A stretch of 64,000 nucleotides of DNA, from the NCBI GenBank assembly GCA_029262235.1, contig JAJCZU010000006.1, positions 322,934-386,933 on the forward strand. The letters are read 5' to 3'. The DNA comes from Candidatus Eiseniibacteriota bacterium. GTDB lineage: Bacteria > Orphanbacterota > Orphanbacteria > Orphanbacterales > Orphanbacteraceae. The position numbers and the translations under genes are program-made. Every line of letters begins with the position of its first letter. The stretch's first letter is position 1. Below the pieces are notes generated by a model. It was not told where the DNA came from. It was given only the letters and a program-made list of their open reading frames with translations, and searched no databases. Below, piece by piece: positions 34,797 through 45,191 of this stretch.

Positions 34797-35555
34797 ATGA
34801 GCAGCATGATTTCGGCCGACACGCTCGTAAAGCGCTATCACGATCCGGCGCGCGGCGACCTGCTCGCGGTCGATCACGTCTCGTTCGAGTGCAGGGAAGG
34901 GGAGATCTTCGGCCTCCTGGGGCCGAACGGAGCAGGGAAGACGACCACGCTCAGGATGCTGGCGACTCTGCTGAAGCCGACGTCCGGTACTGCCGTCCTG
35001 AACGGATATGACGTCGTGCGCGAATCGGAAAAAGTACGCGCTTCGATCGGGTATCTCTCGGGCGATACCGGACTCTACGGCCGGCTCACGCCGCTCGAAA
35101 CGCTGCGCTACTTCGCGCGGCTCAATCATTTCCCCGAGGGCCGCCTCGAAGAGCGGGTCATGTCGCTGGTGCGCGAGTTCGAGATCGAGCGCTTTGCGGA
35201 TGTTCGCTGCGAAAAACTCTCCACGGGAATGAAACAGAAAGTTTCGATTGCGCGGGCGGTCGTGCACGACCCCGCGATCCTCATTTTCGACGAGCCGACA
35301 TCCGGGCTCGACATTCTGGTTGCCGACACGCTTCTGACCTACATCGAACGCTGCCGCGACCTCGACAAATGCGTCGTGTTCTCGACGCACGTCATGAGCG
35401 AAGCGGAGCGTCTGTGCGACCGGATCGCGGTCATCTACGAAGGGCGCATTCTCGCGGTCGGGTCTCTCGAAGAACTTCGCAGTCTGACCGGCGAGCGTTA
35501 TCTTGAGAAGATTTTCCGGTCCCTTCTCGAAAGCGGGTCCCGTGAAATCGCGTGA
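34797..35555 (+). CDS. ABC transporter ATP-binding protein, NatA-like
   Basis: 252 residues from the ATG at 34797 (GAGGAG about 9 bases upstream). Walker A GPNGAGKT (42-49), signature LSTGMKQ (141-147), Walker B ILIFDEP (161-167), and H-loop [12 protein letters not shown] are intact. The start lies 1 base after the upstream permease stop and the end overlaps the next gene by 14 bases, so permease-ATPase-permease form one operon. Confidence 0.94.
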
Positions 35556-37497
35556 CGTCGGCATCGTGTTCCGGAAGGAACTCCTCGATCTTCTCCGTGA
35601 CAGGCGCAGTATTCTCGCCACGATCGTTTTTCCGATCGCGCTCTTTCCGCTCCTCATGTTCGGCAGCAGCCGCATTCAGCAGGTAGGCGAGAGAAACCTC
35701 TCGCTCGAAGTGCTTGCCGTCTCCGTAGAGGACGCCACGCATCAACTGGAGGCGAGGCTCCGATCCGATACGAGTCTCGTCGTCCGTGCGGTGGACGATC
35801 CGCGGGCCGCGATTGCGCGCCGTGAAATTTTCGGAGCGGTTGTCGTGAACGAGCCGATCCCGGGCCCCGGGGAGGACCCGGTTCGGGTCACGATCCTGAT
35901 GGACGACACTGCGGAGCGATCGGAAGTCGCGTCAAACCGGCTTCGCGAACACGTAGAGACATGGCAGTCCGAACTCCAGGCTGCTCGCATTGAGAGCATC
36001 GGGGCCACGGGGGGACTCGTGCGCGCTGTCGAGTGGGAGTCGATCAACCTCGCGAGCGAGGCCCGCATGGCGGGCGATTCCCTGGGCCGGTTCATGCCGA
36101 TCCTGCTCCTCTTTCTTCTCATGAACCCCGCGTCCGTTGCCGCAACCGATCTGTTTTCCGGTGAGAAGGAGCGGAAGACGATCGAGACGTTGCTTACGTC
36201 GAAGGCGGATCGGCGCTCGATCGTGATGGGCAAGTTTCTGACGGTCATTCTCGTCGCGGTTCTGTCGACGCTGCTCTTTCTCGCGTCTTCGCTCTTTTTC
36301 TCGCGAGTCGGGGCCGTACCGGACGACGCGCTCATGGCAACGCTGTCACTGTCCGTCCCTTCTCTGCTTGTCGTGATTCTCGTGTCGATCCCGCTTGCGA
36401 TCTTCCTGTCGGCGATTCTCGTTCTCGTAGCCGCTCAGGCGAAGAGCTATAAAGAGGCGCAGACACTTCTGCTGCCGATCATGCTGGCCGCTCTGCTGCC
36501 CGCGGCGGCCTCACTGCTGCCCGGGATTCGGATCGACTCCATCGTGGCGCTCGTGCCGATCGCAAATACGGCGCTGGCGATGCGGGAAGCCCTGGTCGGT
36601 AATTTCCCCGTCATTCCGCTGGCTCTCGTCATTCTTTCGAACGCGCTCTATGCGGGGTTCGTTCTGATGCAGGCCGTTTCCTATATCGAGAGTGAGGAAT
36701 CGATTCTGGGTGAACGTCCGCCTGCGCCCGGCGACGACACGGCCGGTGCGGCGAAAGAAGCCACACTCTTCGGCCTCGCCACGCTTCTGCTGTTCTACTA
36801 CGTCGGCGTGAGACTCCAGGCGGCGGACCTGCTGAGCGGACTGCTCGTTTCGCTCTGGGGCATCATCCTGGGCGCCGCGATCCTTTTTGCCGCCGTGAAG
36901 AAGCTCCCGGCGCGCGAGGCATTCGCGCTGCGGGCCCCGCGACCGCTCGCACTTGCCGGTGCCGTTCTGCTCGCGATGCCGACTCTGTTCGCGGCCCACG
37001 GTCTCTTCGCGCTGCAATCGCTCTTCGTGCCGGTGCCCGAACAGCTCTTCGAAGCGATGGAACAGATGATGGACCTCGGCAATGGTTCGCTTCCGCTGCT
37101 CGTGTTCGCGATCGCGGTCAGTCCCGGGATCTGCGAGGAGGCCTTCTTCCGGGGGCTCGTGCTCGGGCGCTATCGGGAGGCGCGCATGCCGGCGTGGAAG
37201 GCGATTTTCTTTTCCGCCCTTCTTTTCGGGCTGTTTCATTTGAGCATCTACCGGATTCTGCCGACCGCGACGATGGGGGCCGTGGCGGGATGGCTGACGT
37301 GGCGCACACGCTCTATCTTTCCGGCCATGCTCTTCCATACCCTGTACAACGGAACTCTCGTGCTGGGAGAGACTTACGACTTTCCGGGCGAGTCACTTCC
37401 GACCAGTCCCGTCTGGATCGCGAGCCTCGTTGCCGCCGCGGTTCTGGGGGCCCTTGCGATTGCCTCAAACGGGTGCGAGAGCCGCTCTCGGGCTTGA
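35542..37497 (+). CDS. ABC-2 permease fused to a CPBP-family intramembrane protease
   Basis: 651 residues from a GTG at 35542, inside the last codons of the ATPase gene; an earlier in-frame start would overlap more. Residues 1-385 are a NatB-like permease with a long outer loop and SGEKERKTIETLLTSKADRRSIVMGK. Residues about 410-640 are a CPBP (CAAX protease and bacteriocin-processing) domain: ICEEAFFRG with Glu532-Glu533 and Arg537, FGLFHL with His566, and FHTLYNG. CPBP domains cleave or bind peptides within the membrane, so peptide export or immunity is possible. Such fusions occur in other phyla too. Confidence 0.86.
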   Translation: MKSRDVGIVFRKELLDLLRDRRSILATIVFPIALFPLLMFGSSRIQQVGERNLSLEVLAVSVEDATHQLEARLRSDTSLVVRAVDDPRAAIARREIFGAVVVNEPIPGPGEDPVRVTILMDDTAERSEVASNRLREHVETWQSELQAARIESIGATGGLVRAVEWESINLASEARMAGDSLGRFMPILLLFLLMNPASVAATDLFSGEKERKTIETLLTSKADRRSIVMGKFLTVILVAVLSTLLFLASSLFFSRVGAVPDDALMATLSLSVPSLLVVILVSIPLAIFLSAILVLVAAQAKSYKEAQTLLLPIMLAALLPAAASLLPGIRIDSIVALVPIANTALAMREALVGNFPVIPLALVILSNALYAGFVLMQAVSYIESEESILGERPPAPGDDTAGAAKEATLFGLATLLLFYYVGVRLQAADLLSGLLVSLWGIILGAAILFAAVKKLPAREAFALRAPRPLALAGAVLLAMPTLFAAHGLFALQSLFVPVPEQLFEAMEQMMDLGNGSLPLLVFAIAVSPGICEEAFFRGLVLGRYREARMPAWKAIFFSALLFGLFHLSIYRILPTATMGAVAGWLTWRTRSIFPAMLFHTLYNGTLVLGETYDFPGESLPTSPVWIASLVAAAVLGALAIASNGCESRSRA

Positions 37498-37516
37498 TAT
37501 CGACGTTTCTTTTTTG

Positions 37517-37545
37517 TTGACAGTGATCGAACCGCGATCTAAAGA
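37517..37545 (+). promoter_or_regulatory. Candidate sigma-70 promoter of the histone-like gene
   Basis: Perfect TTGACA (37517-37522), 17-base spacer, TAAAGA (37540-37545). About 48 bases of leader separate it from the ATG at 37599. Confidence 0.6.
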
Positions 37546-37598
37546 TGGGGGCGCAAGCGGGGGTGTGCCCTGCTTACCACACCTTTAGGAGGTACGAA

Positions 37599-37769
37599 AT
37601 GGCCGATCTCATTATTTCGAAGGCCCGCACGAAAGATGCCGCCAAGAAGTGCAATGTCTCGAGCGATTTTTACGAAGCCCTCGATCAGAGAGTGCGTGCG
37701 ATGATCAAAGACGCGGAAAAGCGTGCGACGGCGAACAACCGGAAGACGCTCAAGCCGCAGGATCTCTAG
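37599..37769 (+). CDS. Small bacterial histone-fold-like protein
   Basis: 56 residues, pI basic. TAGGAGG seven bases before the ATG is a near-ideal ribosome site. The sequence has the pattern of the short bacterial histones related to Bdellovibrio Bd0055: an N-terminal basic stretch (IISKARTKDAAKK), then VSSDFYEALDQRVRAMIKDA as the long central helix, and the closing block KRATANNRKTLKPQDL, which parallels the histone ending 'AKxxGRKTVxxxDI'. Such proteins dimerise and coat or bend DNA. A strong promoter, strong ribosome site and a terminator immediately after suggest an abundant product. Alternative: an unrelated small helical protein; profile search would settle it. Confidence 0.72.
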   Translation: MADLIISKARTKDAAKKCNVSSDFYEALDQRVRAMIKDAEKRATANNRKTLKPQDL

Positions 37770-37808
37770 AAAGCCCGCGTCGCCCCGATTTCAGTTTTTG
37801 ATTCGAAT

Positions 37809-37840
37809 ACGGCTCCACCGGAAGCGATGGGGCCGTTTTT
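37809..37840 (+). terminator. Terminator of the histone-like gene
   Basis: Nine-base-pair stem (ACGGCTCCA 37809-37817 with TGGGGCCGT 37828-37836, one wobble), loop of ten, followed by TTTTT. Confidence 0.8.
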
Positions 37841-37897
37841 CATGCCCGGAACCTCCCGCCGCTCCGCGGCGTTCCCCGCCGTTTCAACAGGGCGGTA

Positions 37898-38560: not shown

Positions 38561-39583
38561 GTGGCTCGTCTTGCGACTCTCATGATCCTGACAGTTCTGA
38601 TATTGCCGGGCCTCGCGCTCGGGGCGTCGCTGACGTCCGAGGACGTTTCTGCGCTCTGGAAGGCAGGCGTCGGCGAACGCGTGATCCTGGCCAAGATCGC
38701 CGAAAGCGGCTCCACCTTCGACCTTTCCACCACAGAAATCATCGATCTCAAGAAAGCGGGCATTCCCGATTCGGTCCTGGAAGCCATGATCCGTTCCGGG
38801 GAAACCGACCTCGACGCCATTCAGGCCGCGATCCCCGCACGGAATGCGGAAACCGACGTCGACGGGGAAGATGAGATCCCGGCTGATCTCGGATTCGATC
38901 GCTACGAAACGCCCGAGGCAGTGGAGGTCGTGCTCGTGCCCTATGCCGTCCCCCGGTACGGCGGGTACTCCTTTTCATACTGGCACGGTTACTGGAACGA
39001 TCCATGGTACGCCTCGGTGGCGTTCGACTGGTACTACCCCCGCTACTGGTACGGCGCCTACTGTTCGCCGATCGGTTACGCGAGCCTGTACTGGGGCCAT
39101 TACTGGGGCCACCATTCCTACAGTCACTACGGCCACCACGGACATCATGGTCACCATTACAACGATCACCGCGGCGACTACGGGCGCCCGCAAACGCGGC
39201 ATCAGTCGGTCTATCGCTCGGGATATACCAAGGAGCGGAGTCGTACGAATGTGGCGGCTCGCAGCGGAAGCCGTTCCGAAACGCACTACAGAAGCGGCAC
39301 GCAGCGGAGCGTAACCGCGCGGGATACGAAGGCCACCACGCGGTCACGGGGAACCACGGCGGGCACGATCACCCGTCCTTCCGGCTCGACACGCTATAGC
39401 CCGAAGGAAACGAGGCCGAGCAGCGGAACGAAGTCCACCGTGCGCTCGCGCCCTTCGAGTACGGGGCGAAGCGCCGTCCAGCGTCCGGCACCGTCGTCGA
39501 ACCGTGGCACGTCTTCACGAGCCACTACGGGACGGTCGGGCACGACTCGATCAGGCAGTTCAGGTGGCAAGCGCGGTCGCTGA
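38561..39583 (+). CDS. Secreted His/Tyr-rich low-complexity protein
   Basis: 340 residues from a GTG start behind GAGGGAGA. Signal peptide 1-22. Residues 23-75 (LTSEDVSALWKAGVGERVILAKI, then TEIIDLKKAGIPDSVLEAMI) form a helical module common at the N-terminus of secreted proteins of unknown role. Residues about 125-200 are very rich in Tyr, Trp and His (for example HHGHHGHHYNDH near 196-207), suggesting metal binding or adhesion. The C-terminal 130 residues are a disordered Arg/Ser/Thr/Gly tail. No enzyme motif. Codon use is like its neighbours. Confidence 0.75.
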   Translation: MARLATLMILTVLILPGLALGASLTSEDVSALWKAGVGERVILAKIAESGSTFDLSTTEIIDLKKAGIPDSVLEAMIRSGETDLDAIQAAIPARNAETDVDGEDEIPADLGFDRYETPEAVEVVLVPYAVPRYGGYSFSYWHGYWNDPWYASVAFDWYYPRYWYGAYCSPIGYASLYWGHYWGHHSYSHYGHHGHHGHHYNDHRGDYGRPQTRHQSVYRSGYTKERSRTNVAARSGSRSETHYRSGTQRSVTARDTKATTRSRGTTAGTITRPSGSTRYSPKETRPSSGTKSTVRSRPSSTGRSAVQRPAPSSNRGTSSRATTGRSGTTRSGSSGGKRGR

Positions 39584-39697
39584 GCCACTTTTGTTACGAT
39601 AGTTTTACGAATTCGTGCACCAATCTAAGCTAGTATGGGGTCTGCACTCATGCTGAAAAAACAAAACGCCCCTTTCTTGAAGAAGGAGAGTTCATTG

Positions 39698-40342
39698 ATG
39701 TTCAACGCAAAGAGACTCACGATCGCACTCGCTGTTCCGGCGCTGCTCGGTCTGGCATTCGTTACGGCCGAATCGGGTGACTACAAGAAGTCGTCGGGAA
39801 GCAGCAGTTGCCAGTCGACCACGAAGCAGGCAAGTGCCAACGGTTCGTGTTCGAGCACGAAGCAGGCCAGCGGCTCCACGTGCTCGTCGACCAAGGCTTC
39901 GGTGAAGCAGGCCAGCGCGAACGGAGCCTCGTGCTCGGGCGCCCAGAAAGCCAGCGCTTCGTGCTCCGGCGCGAATGCCACGGTCAAGCAGGCCAGCGCG
40001 GGCGCCGGCTGCTGTGCCGGTGGCGCGAAAGTCTCCACGGCTTCGGCCTGTGCTTCGGCCTCGAAGTGCGGCGTCAGTCTCGTGAAGGCGGAAGACGGTC
40101 TGCGGATTTACGCTCTCGGCGACGAAGCCGGCACGAAAGAGTGGATGGAAACGGTGGCGATGGACCTCCGTGAAAACCGTAACCTGAAGGTCGAGATCTT
40201 CGAAGCCAAGGGTGGATCGTACATGCTCGTGAAGAGCACGTCCTCCGGTGCCGCCAGCTACACGCAGCTCGTGCAGGCTGCTGCGGGCGAACAGAAGTGC
40301 ATGGCCGTATGCGCTACGAACGGCTGCCCTCCGAAGGCGTAA
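39698..40342 (+). CDS. Secreted Cys/Ser/Ala-rich repeat protein
   Basis: 214 residues from the ATG at 39698, chosen because AAGGAGAG lies 7 bases upstream; an ATG at 39635 in the same frame has no site. Signal peptide to about residue 24. Residues 26-125 repeat short units such as KQASANG, CSSTKQAS and KASASCSGA, with about ten cysteines, and look like a disordered or cross-linked stalk. Residues 130-200 (KCGVSLVKAEDGLRIYALGDEAG, EWMETVAMDL, FEAKGGSYMLVKS) form a small folded domain not recognised. Two further Cys pairs close the C-terminus. Followed by a strong terminator. Confidence 0.75.
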   Translation: MFNAKRLTIALAVPALLGLAFVTAESGDYKKSSGSSSCQSTTKQASANGSCSSTKQASGSTCSSTKASVKQASANGASCSGAQKASASCSGANATVKQASAGAGCCAGGAKVSTASACASASKCGVSLVKAEDGLRIYALGDEAGTKEWMETVAMDLRENRNLKVEIFEAKGGSYMLVKSTSSGAASYTQLVQAAAGEQKCMAVCATNGCPPKA

Positions 40343-40402: not shown

Positions 40403-40557
40403 ATGTAAGTCGAAACCAGAGAGGAAAGCGAACGACGTAAAGCGGAAGAAAACAACCAATCTTGGGAAGGATCGTTAAAGAAACGACCCTGTCGGTCGAT
40501 GGTTGTACAAAAGGGGCAAACCCGGCCAGCCGTAGACACGGGAAGGGGACGTATCAC

Positions 40558-42597
<2,040 letters not shown>

Positions 42598-42609
42598 GGG
42601 GGAGTCCGC

Positions 42610-43689
42610 GTGCTTCGCATCGACCGGGACCATTCGCGATTCAAGAAGATCGTCCGCGGGGCGATCAAAGAGAACCTGCGCGAGTACATCAAGAACGGCG
42701 AGATGATCGGCCGCCAGGGAGGGCGCTACGTGTCCATCCCTGTGCCGTCCATCGAACTGCCGCGCTTCAAGTTCGGCCAGCCCGGCTCGGGCGGCGTGGG
42801 CCAGGGCGACGGGGAAGAGGGCGAAGGCGTCCAGGCCGAGGCCGGCGATCAGCCCGGGCAGCACATTCTCGAAGTCGACGTTCCGCTCGACGATCTCGCC
42901 GCCATTCTCGGGGAAGAGCTCGGCCTTCCGAATATCGAACCACGCGGCAGGATGCAGATCGAAGACGAACACGATCGTTACACGTCGATCAGGCGGACTG
43001 GTCCCGAGTCGCTGCGGCATTTCAAACGCACGTATACGGCGGCCCTCAAACGCCAGATCGCATCCGGCACTTATAACAAGCGAAACCCCGTCATCATTCC
43101 GATTCGCGAGGATCAGCGGTATCGCTCGTGGAAGACCATCGAGGAACCCGAGTCGAGCGCGGTCATCATTTACATGATGGACGTGTCCGGTTCCATGGGG
43201 GACGAGCAGAAGGAGATGGTGCGGCTCGAGTCGTTCTGGATCGACACGTGGCTGCGCACGCAGTACCAGAATCTCGAAACGCGTTTCATCGTCCACGACG
43301 CCGTGGCGCATCTGGTTGACCGCGAGACGTTCTTTCATACGCGCGAAAGCGGCGGCACGAAGATCTCGTCCGCGTACGATCTCTGCTGGCGCCTGATCGA
43401 ACGTGATTTCGCGCCCGAAGAATGGAACATCTATCCGTTCCACTTCTCCGACGGCGACAACTGGGGCGGCGGCGACACCGACGTGGCCGTCGGCCTCATG
43501 AAAGACCGTCTGCTTCCGGTTTCGAATCAGTTTTCGTACGGGCAGGTGAAGTCTCTCTACGGCACCGGCCAGTTCATCAAGGATCTGCGCGAGAAGCTTC
43601 CCGAAGAGGAGTCTCTCGTGCTTTCCGAAATCAATTCCAAGGACGACATCTACGGATCGATCCGTGAATTCCTGGGAGGGGGACGATGA
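42610..43689 (+). CDS. DUF444/YeaH-YhbH family von Willebrand A-domain protein
   Basis: 359 residues from a GTG start. The N-terminus ([24 protein letters not shown]) and a Gly/Glu-rich linker (58-85) lead to a VWA domain with MIDAS motif DVSGSMGD (191-198) and later [18 protein letters not shown] and [12 protein letters not shown]. It is the usual partner of PrkA kinase. Coupled to spoVR by a 4-base overlap. Confidence 0.93.
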
Positions 43690-45191
43690 GCCTTCCCGCG
43701 CATCTGCAGAAGATCAAGGACGAGGTCGAAGCCGTGGCGAAGAGCGTGGGACTCGACTTCTTCGAGACGATCTTCGAAATGGTCGACTACGACATGATGA
43801 ACGAGATCGCGAGTTACGGCGGGTTCCCTTCGCGCTATCCGCACTGGCGTTTCGGCATGAGCTATGAATCCCTCTCGAAGGGGTATCGATACGGGCTGCA
43901 GAAGATCTACGAACTCGTGATCAACAACGATCCCTGTTATGCGTACCTGATGGACTGCAATCAGACCGTCGACCAGAAGATGGTGATGGCCCATGTCTAC
44001 GGGCACAGTGACTTCTTCAAGAACAACTATTGGTTTTCGCAGACGAATCGAAAAATGATAGACCAGCTCGCGAACCACGGAACGCGTGTGCAGCGCTACA
44101 TGGAAAAGCACGGGCCGGACCGCGTCGAGGAGATGATCGACGCCGCGCTTTCGATCGAAGATCTGATCGATCCGTATTCCGTGTTCTCGCCGAAGGGTGC
44201 CGATTCCATCGCGGACGACGAAGGGCGCATCGGTAAGATTCAGTCAAAAGAATACATGGACTCGTTCATCAATCCGCCGGAGTTCATGCAGGCACAGAAA
44301 GAGCGCCTGCTCGAGGAGCAGAAGAAGAAGGAGACGCAGTTCCCGCAGGAACCTCTGCGCGACGTGCTTCTCTTCCTGATGAACTACGCGCCGCTTCGCG
44401 ACTGGGAGCGCGATGTCCTCTCGATGATTCGCGAGGAGAGCTACTACTTCGCGCCGCAGGCGCAGACGAAGATCATGAACGAGGGGTGGGCCACGTTCTG
44501 GCACTCGAAGATCATGACCGAGTACTGCCTGAAGGACGCGGAAATTATCGACTATGCCGACCATCATTCGGGCACGGTTGCGACGCAGCCGGGCCAGCTG
44601 AACCCGTACAAGATGGGTCTTGATCTCTTTCGGGATATCGAGTATCGCTGGGACACGGGACGCTTCGGCGAGGAGTATGAGGCGTGCGACGATCTGACGG
44701 CGAAGCGAGAATGGAATCGCAATCTCGGCCAGGGTCTCGAGAAGATCTTCGAGGTGCGCAAGATCCATAACGACGTCACGTTCATCGACACGTTCCTGAC
44801 CGAGGAGTTCTGCCGGGAGCACAAGCTGTTCGTATTCGCGTACAACGAAAAGAAGGGCCGGCAGGAAGTGGCCTCGCGCGAATTCGGAAAAGTGAAACAG
44901 CAGCTCCTGTTTCAGCTGACCAACACGGGGCGTCCTTTCATTTTCGTGGAAGACGCCAACTTCGGAAACCGCGGGGAATTACTTCTCGCACACCGTCACG
45001 AAGGATTGGACCTGGACGATGGGATGGCCAAAAAGACACTTATCAATATTCAGCGATTCTGGCGCCGTCCTGTTCGACTCCGGTCGATCCGTGACGGGAA
45101 AGAAATCCTCTACTCTTTCGACGGCACCGAGATGGCGGAGGAAGAAACCGATCACAAGCCGCAGCCCGAAATTTTCGAAGAGCTGTCCTGA
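43686..45191 (+). CDS. SpoVR family protein
   Basis: 501 residues, normal length. Conserved blocks visible: [75 protein letters not shown] and [22 protein letters not shown]. Required for spore cortex in Bacillus and part of the PrkA/YeaH/SpoVR starvation module in non-sporeformers; no sporulation gene is present here, so the second role is more likely. ATG overlaps the upstream stop. Confidence 0.95.

Follow-up and report, generated by a model that had tools for sequence, protein, structure and literature searches.

A histone gene conserved across a bacterial phylum and its probable membership of the alpha3 face-to-face class

The histone gene, its signals and its neighbours

The window, by which we mean the whole 64,000-nucleotide stretch of DNA that was analysed (60.8% G+C, from a genome of 4.47 Mb), contains a short histone gene that lies between a transporter locus and a group of genes including prkA. 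The features that bear on it are as follows.

34800..37497, + strand: ABC ATPase and ABC-2 permease-CAAX-protease fusion, the syntenic upstream neighbours
37470..37516, + strand: hairpin plus T run separating the upstream gene from TTGACA, likely terminator of the upstream gene
37517..37522, + strand: TTGACA, candidate -35 box with a T-rich stretch before it, 76 nt 5' of the start
37587..37592, + strand: ribosome binding site AGGAGG, 6 nt 5' of the start codon
37599..37769, + strand: histone gene, 56 amino acids plus stop, probably of the alpha3 face-to-face (FtF) type
37809..37840, + strand: intrinsic terminator, a G+C-rich hairpin followed by TTTTT, 3' of the histone stop
40462..45191, + strand: PrkA kinase, DUF444 and SpoVR, the downstream neighbours

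The mechanical ORF call for this gene is longer and runs from 37545. We take 37599 as the start because of the position of AGGAGG and because tailless relatives begin with the same methionine. Read from there, the gene gives the basic 56-residue protein described in the earlier note (pI 9.73; 13 Lys plus Arg against 8 Asp plus Glu), with KTLKPQDL as its C-terminal end. The ORF is short and falls under every curated family cut-off tried, as might be said of a stretch that is not a gene, of a helical ORF arisen by chance or of an assembly contaminant, but the probability of any of these is negligible: the sequence keeps 73-96% identity across six other genomes of the phylum at the syntenic place, the ribosome site and terminator are conserved, and the gene sits on a 400 kb contig. 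Conservation across the phylum rules out a chance ORF or a non-gene.

The TTGACA, ribosome site and terminator that the earlier note had pointed out are real, and each recurs in all seven genomes of the phylum, which are related and so are non-independent trials. TTGACA stands 76-88 nt 5' of the start after a T-rich stretch (of 18252 overlapping 120-nt pieces of the window at large, 181, or 1.0%, contain it), the ribosome site lies 6-10 nt 5' of the start, and 3' of the stop there is a comparable hairpin with a T-rich tail; among 400 random window pieces, 3 reach its score. At eleven loci outside the phylum, an exact TTGACA was found within 120 nt in three and a hairpin score of at least 13 in ten. 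The hairpin at 37809-37840 has a z of -4.49, with none of 200 shuffles equally stable, and the folding energy of the wider stretch 37765-37850 is ordinary (z 0.02); for the hairpin at 37470..37516 z is -2.18, and 3 of 200 shuffles are equally stable. A mechanical scan of the locus reported no promoter and no terminator, the former because there is no good -10 box (the best, TCTAAA, matches at 4 of 6 positions with a 15-nt spacer) and the latter because the hairpin loop is longer than the scanner's 8-nt limit. The likely terminator of the upstream gene, together with the gene's own signals, makes the histone a single-gene transcription unit.

The earlier note took these signals to suggest a major protein; conserved as they are, they do not establish that it is abundant. 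Codon adaptation of the histone gene, measured against a mechanically picked reference set of 18 ORFs around the ribosomal-protein cluster, exceeds that of all but 4 of 47 window ORFs, and this is not significant once length-matched, since 586 of 3000 matched stretches do as well; codon usage was therefore rejected as a sign of high expression.

The ABC ATPase and the ABC-2/CAAX-protease gene are found upstream of the histone in all six phylum relatives. PrkA is downstream in three of the six; one view is cut by a contig end, and in two PrkA was unseen in the stretch taken. At seven compared loci outside the phylum no shared neighbour was matched. The place kept within the phylum speaks for vertical inheritance there.

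Three of the neighbouring proteins have features of their own. The product of 35503-37497 combines an ABC-2 permease with a CAAX-protease (Rce1-like) domain in one polypeptide. The product of 38561-39583 has a His/Tyr-rich centre and a Ser/Thr/Arg-rich tail, and that of 39635-40342 is secreted-looking with Ser/Cys/Lys/Ala-rich repeats; neither has a Pfam match, and homologues are similarly placed in four of the six relatives for the first and downstream in three of the six for the second.

Sequence, predicted structure and histone class

The window protein passes no Pfam or NCBIfam model, and NCBIfam returned nothing relevant. Its matches to Pfam DUF1931 and CBFD_NFYB_HMF stay below cut-off (14.1 bits where 21.4 are required, and 15 where 21.8 are), level with a chance-like match to DctP. 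Among 32 family members searched at E up to 0.1, DUF1931 matches 26 and PF00808 matches 15, and PF00808 is over its cut-off in none of the seven phylum genomes. Surveys resting solely on the curated Pfam cut-offs would therefore miss this protein.

Searches of solved structures place it among the histones. With the single sequence, the matches are HTkC of Thermococcus kodakarensis (3.5e-6) and HLp of Leptospira perolatii (3.6e-4), and Bd0055/HBb of Bdellovibrio bacteriovorus is absent at E up to 1. With the family profile, HTkC (4.1e-15), HLp (5.1e-10) and HBb (5e-8) come first, followed by archaeal nucleosomal histones.

The predicted single chain (pLDDT 74.1, pTM 0.46) has helices at residues 3-17 and 22-45 and a one-turn helix at 53-55, which is a histone fold with a truncated last helix. 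Alpha3 histones are described as having a truncated helix 3 of 3-4 residues and a helix 2 that is 4-5 residues shorter (Schwab et al. 2024, PMC11390915), and the model has, with moderate confidence, both the short helix 3 and the reduced helix 2. HTkC, HLp and HBb, in that order, head the Foldseek ranking, with a probability of about 1 and every E above 0.001. In VIA-align HLp, HBb and HTkC are tied at Z 5.7-6.1 (HLp 6.1; HBb 5.7-5.9), above the other listed chains, and all top PDB structural matches are histones. The fold comparison thus points to a short-helix histone, and it is the sequence that tells which kind.

PMC11390915 recognises two groups of short bacterial histones: FtF tetramers, whose dimer-dimer interface has conserved R48/N52, and bacterial dimers, described there as being without this pair. 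The FtF HMM of the same paper has conserved residues at 48, 52, 54, 56 and 61, and R42, N46, R48, T50 and D55 of the window protein match these. In HLp, crystallography shows that R49, N53 and R55 hold the tetramer (Hu et al., PMC12701072); R42, N46, R48 and D55 match HLp R49, N53, R55 and D62, so that both members of the interface R/N pair are present. The alpha3 motif RxTxxxxD, as defined in PMC11390915, is formed by R48, T50 and D55. On our reading of the profile alignment, the HLp DNA contacts K15, K17, K21 and T57 (PMC12701072) fall on R10, K12, K16 and T50, and K12 also corresponds, by its offset from the R/N/R residues, to the helix-1 DNA-binding lysine of FtF histones (K11 of D4GZE0, PMC11390915). 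R42, N46, R48, T50, D55 and K12 are present in all 32 aligned rows, a set that leans to close relatives in that similarity to the query decided the choice of rows and loci were taken from the top-scoring genomes in each search of a phylum; the rows are the window protein and 31 of 44 loci, and the 13 left out are the window's own copy, duplicates and near-duplicates.

The earlier note had called the protein a Bd0055-like histone. The histone assignment stands, by sequence and by predicted fold, and it is the subclass that has to be changed. A bacterial dimer histone of the Bd0055/HBb kind, which would stay dimeric and bend or coat DNA, would explain the significant HBb profile match, the common RKT motif and truncated last helix, and the tied VIA-align scores. 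We nevertheless think this unlikely, because the FtF structures are better by sequence and come first in Foldseek, and because R42/N46, which the bacterial dimers of PMC11390915 lack, are kept in all 32 aligned rows, and the HBb row of the profile alignment reads S and D there. The R42/N46 pair in the sequence is a strong sign of a tetramer, short of proof; N46 is no absolute marker, since HTkC is tetrameric though it has Glu at that position.

The window protein is most probably an alpha3 FtF histone, a class defined by a closed ring-shaped homotetramer, and it would wrap about 60 bp of DNA and organise the chromosome. By analogy with HLp and HTkC, two chains would form a histone handshake dimer, and two dimers would join at both ends, through R42, N46, R48 and C-terminal residues, to close the ring. 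DNA would be wrapped non-specifically round this ring, with R10, K12 and K16 (helix 1) and K49/T50 (loop 2) as its contacts, and the histone would share the chromosome with several HU/IHF proteins.

Distribution, descent and coexistence with HU/IHF

Each of the seven genomes of the phylum that were searched has one copy of the histone, and a profile search for a second at E up to 1 found one place per genome in all seven. Elsewhere, 48 of 80 genomes of Krumholzibacteriota are positive (44 at E < 1e-15 and four weakly), as are 10 of 95 in Methylomirabilota and one of eight in the phylum of the genome with record JAGLYR01. Archaeal relatives with 43-58% identity are found in haloarchaea, Aenigmatarchaeota and Woesearchaeota.

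Short basic N-terminal tails precede the histone core at ten loci (L027, L028, L029, L032, L034, L039, L041, L042, L044 and L007) whose close kin are tailless. Within the phylum a basic tail is present in three genomes (G002, G005 and G006), and several proteins outside it also have one; the window protein and others are tailless. Four genomes of the Krumholzibacteriota phylum have, beside the FtF copy, a second and more distant histone relative of 39-49% identity (G007:C10:9248-9406, G024:C31:17715-17876, G026:C47:57458-57616 and G056:C68:79835-79993), and similarly weak histone matches stand alone in G022, G037, G038 and G039. These distant relatives are possibly another alpha3 class.

Plasmid matches come from 79 records. 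Their tally names ten genera, presumably haloarchaeal judging by the names, and counts 16 more. A mobile origin was rejected, as the plasmid matches are all below 60% identity. A phage or viral histone was rejected too: viral contigs gave 41 pattern matches and no confirmed relative, and phages gave none. A tree of 35 rows by 56 columns has 21 of 32 inner branches open; it sets 26 bacterial rows (without HLp and HBb) apart from the archaea at 88/90, which is below the star threshold, and it splits the rows of the window protein's own family over more than one clade. Being short, with weak branches and a split own family, the tree leaves the direction and number of transfers undecided.

HU/IHF genes number three to five in each of the seven phylum genomes, with four in the window's own. 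The histone is therefore not the sole architectural protein and need not be the main organiser. It might instead be a histone-fold protein outside general DNA packaging, such as a local regulator or a complex subunit, given that several HU/IHF members are already present, that roles beyond DNA packaging are described for some histone folds (PMC10627809), and that the genes conserved next to it encode a transporter and, in part, PrkA-SpoVR, with no chromosome genes. This we consider improbable: the positions of the HLp DNA contacts stay basic, the protein as a whole is strongly so, and the gene forms a unit by itself, with signals of its own. We thus keep to an FtF histone that would act on the chromosome beside HU/IHF.

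Reports of bacterial FtF histones come chiefly from Spirochaetota, Planctomycetota, Bdellovibrionota and Myxococcota (PMC11390915), and the one that has been characterised in detail is that of Leptospira, described as being without HU (PMC12701072). Neither PMC11390915 nor PMC10627809 names in its main text any Krumholzi-, Eisenbacteria, Gemmatimonad- or Methylomirabil- lineage, so the suggestion that this is a new lineage for histones holds for those main texts; the supplements may list the lineage. Our literature search found no histone report for Krumholzibacteriota. We suggest tentatively, and with rather less than even confidence, that FtF histone chromatin may be an old, vertically inherited trait of the whole phylum and of much of Krumholzibacteriota, in which tailless archaeal-type and short basic-tailed forms would wrap DNA as tetramers beside HU/IHF. 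If true, the chromatin would combine histone and HU and differ from that of Leptospira. With an FtF histone that is syntenic, single-copy and phylum-wide beside HU/IHF, two questions become open to test: whether bacteria have had histones for long or gained them from archaea again and again, and in what way one nucleoid accommodates both wrapping by histones and bending by HU.

Comparison with known histones

The best match by both sequence and Foldseek is HTkC, the archaeal FtF histone of T. kodakarensis (PDB 9F2C), which has the same length, a tailless N-terminus and truncated helices 2 and 3, and which has Arg at position 42 and RKT in common with the window protein. It differs in having Glu in place of N46 and a few additional residues between helix 1 and loop 1.

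Haloarchaeal FtF histones among the 20 matches listed have 53.6-58.9% identity over the full length and the same layout of 55-56 residues; many of these relatives are on plasmids and annotated as 'DUF1931 domain-containing protein'. Two haloarchaeal loci (L016 and L022) have R42 and N46 in common with the window protein but are acidic, with a pI of 4.3 against 9.7.

Bd0055/HBb (PDB 8FVX, 8CMP), reported to be dimeric and to bend or coat DNA, has the histone fold, the short helix 2, the one-turn helix 3 and RKT...D in common with the window protein; identity is about 20%, and Ser and Asp replace R42 and N46.

HLp, the bacterial FtF histone of L. perolatii (PDB 9QT0-9QT2), wraps about 60 bp of DNA (PMC12701072), and fragments of roughly 35-70 bp are published as its MNase-protected sizes. 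It differs from the window protein in its N-terminal extension and in having RTT in loop 2 where the window protein has RKT, identity is about 33%, and its hosts are described as being without HU (PMC12701072), whereas the window's phylum has HU/IHF. In common with the window protein it has the R/N/R/D tetramer and clamp residues and the basic DNA-contact residues of helix 1.
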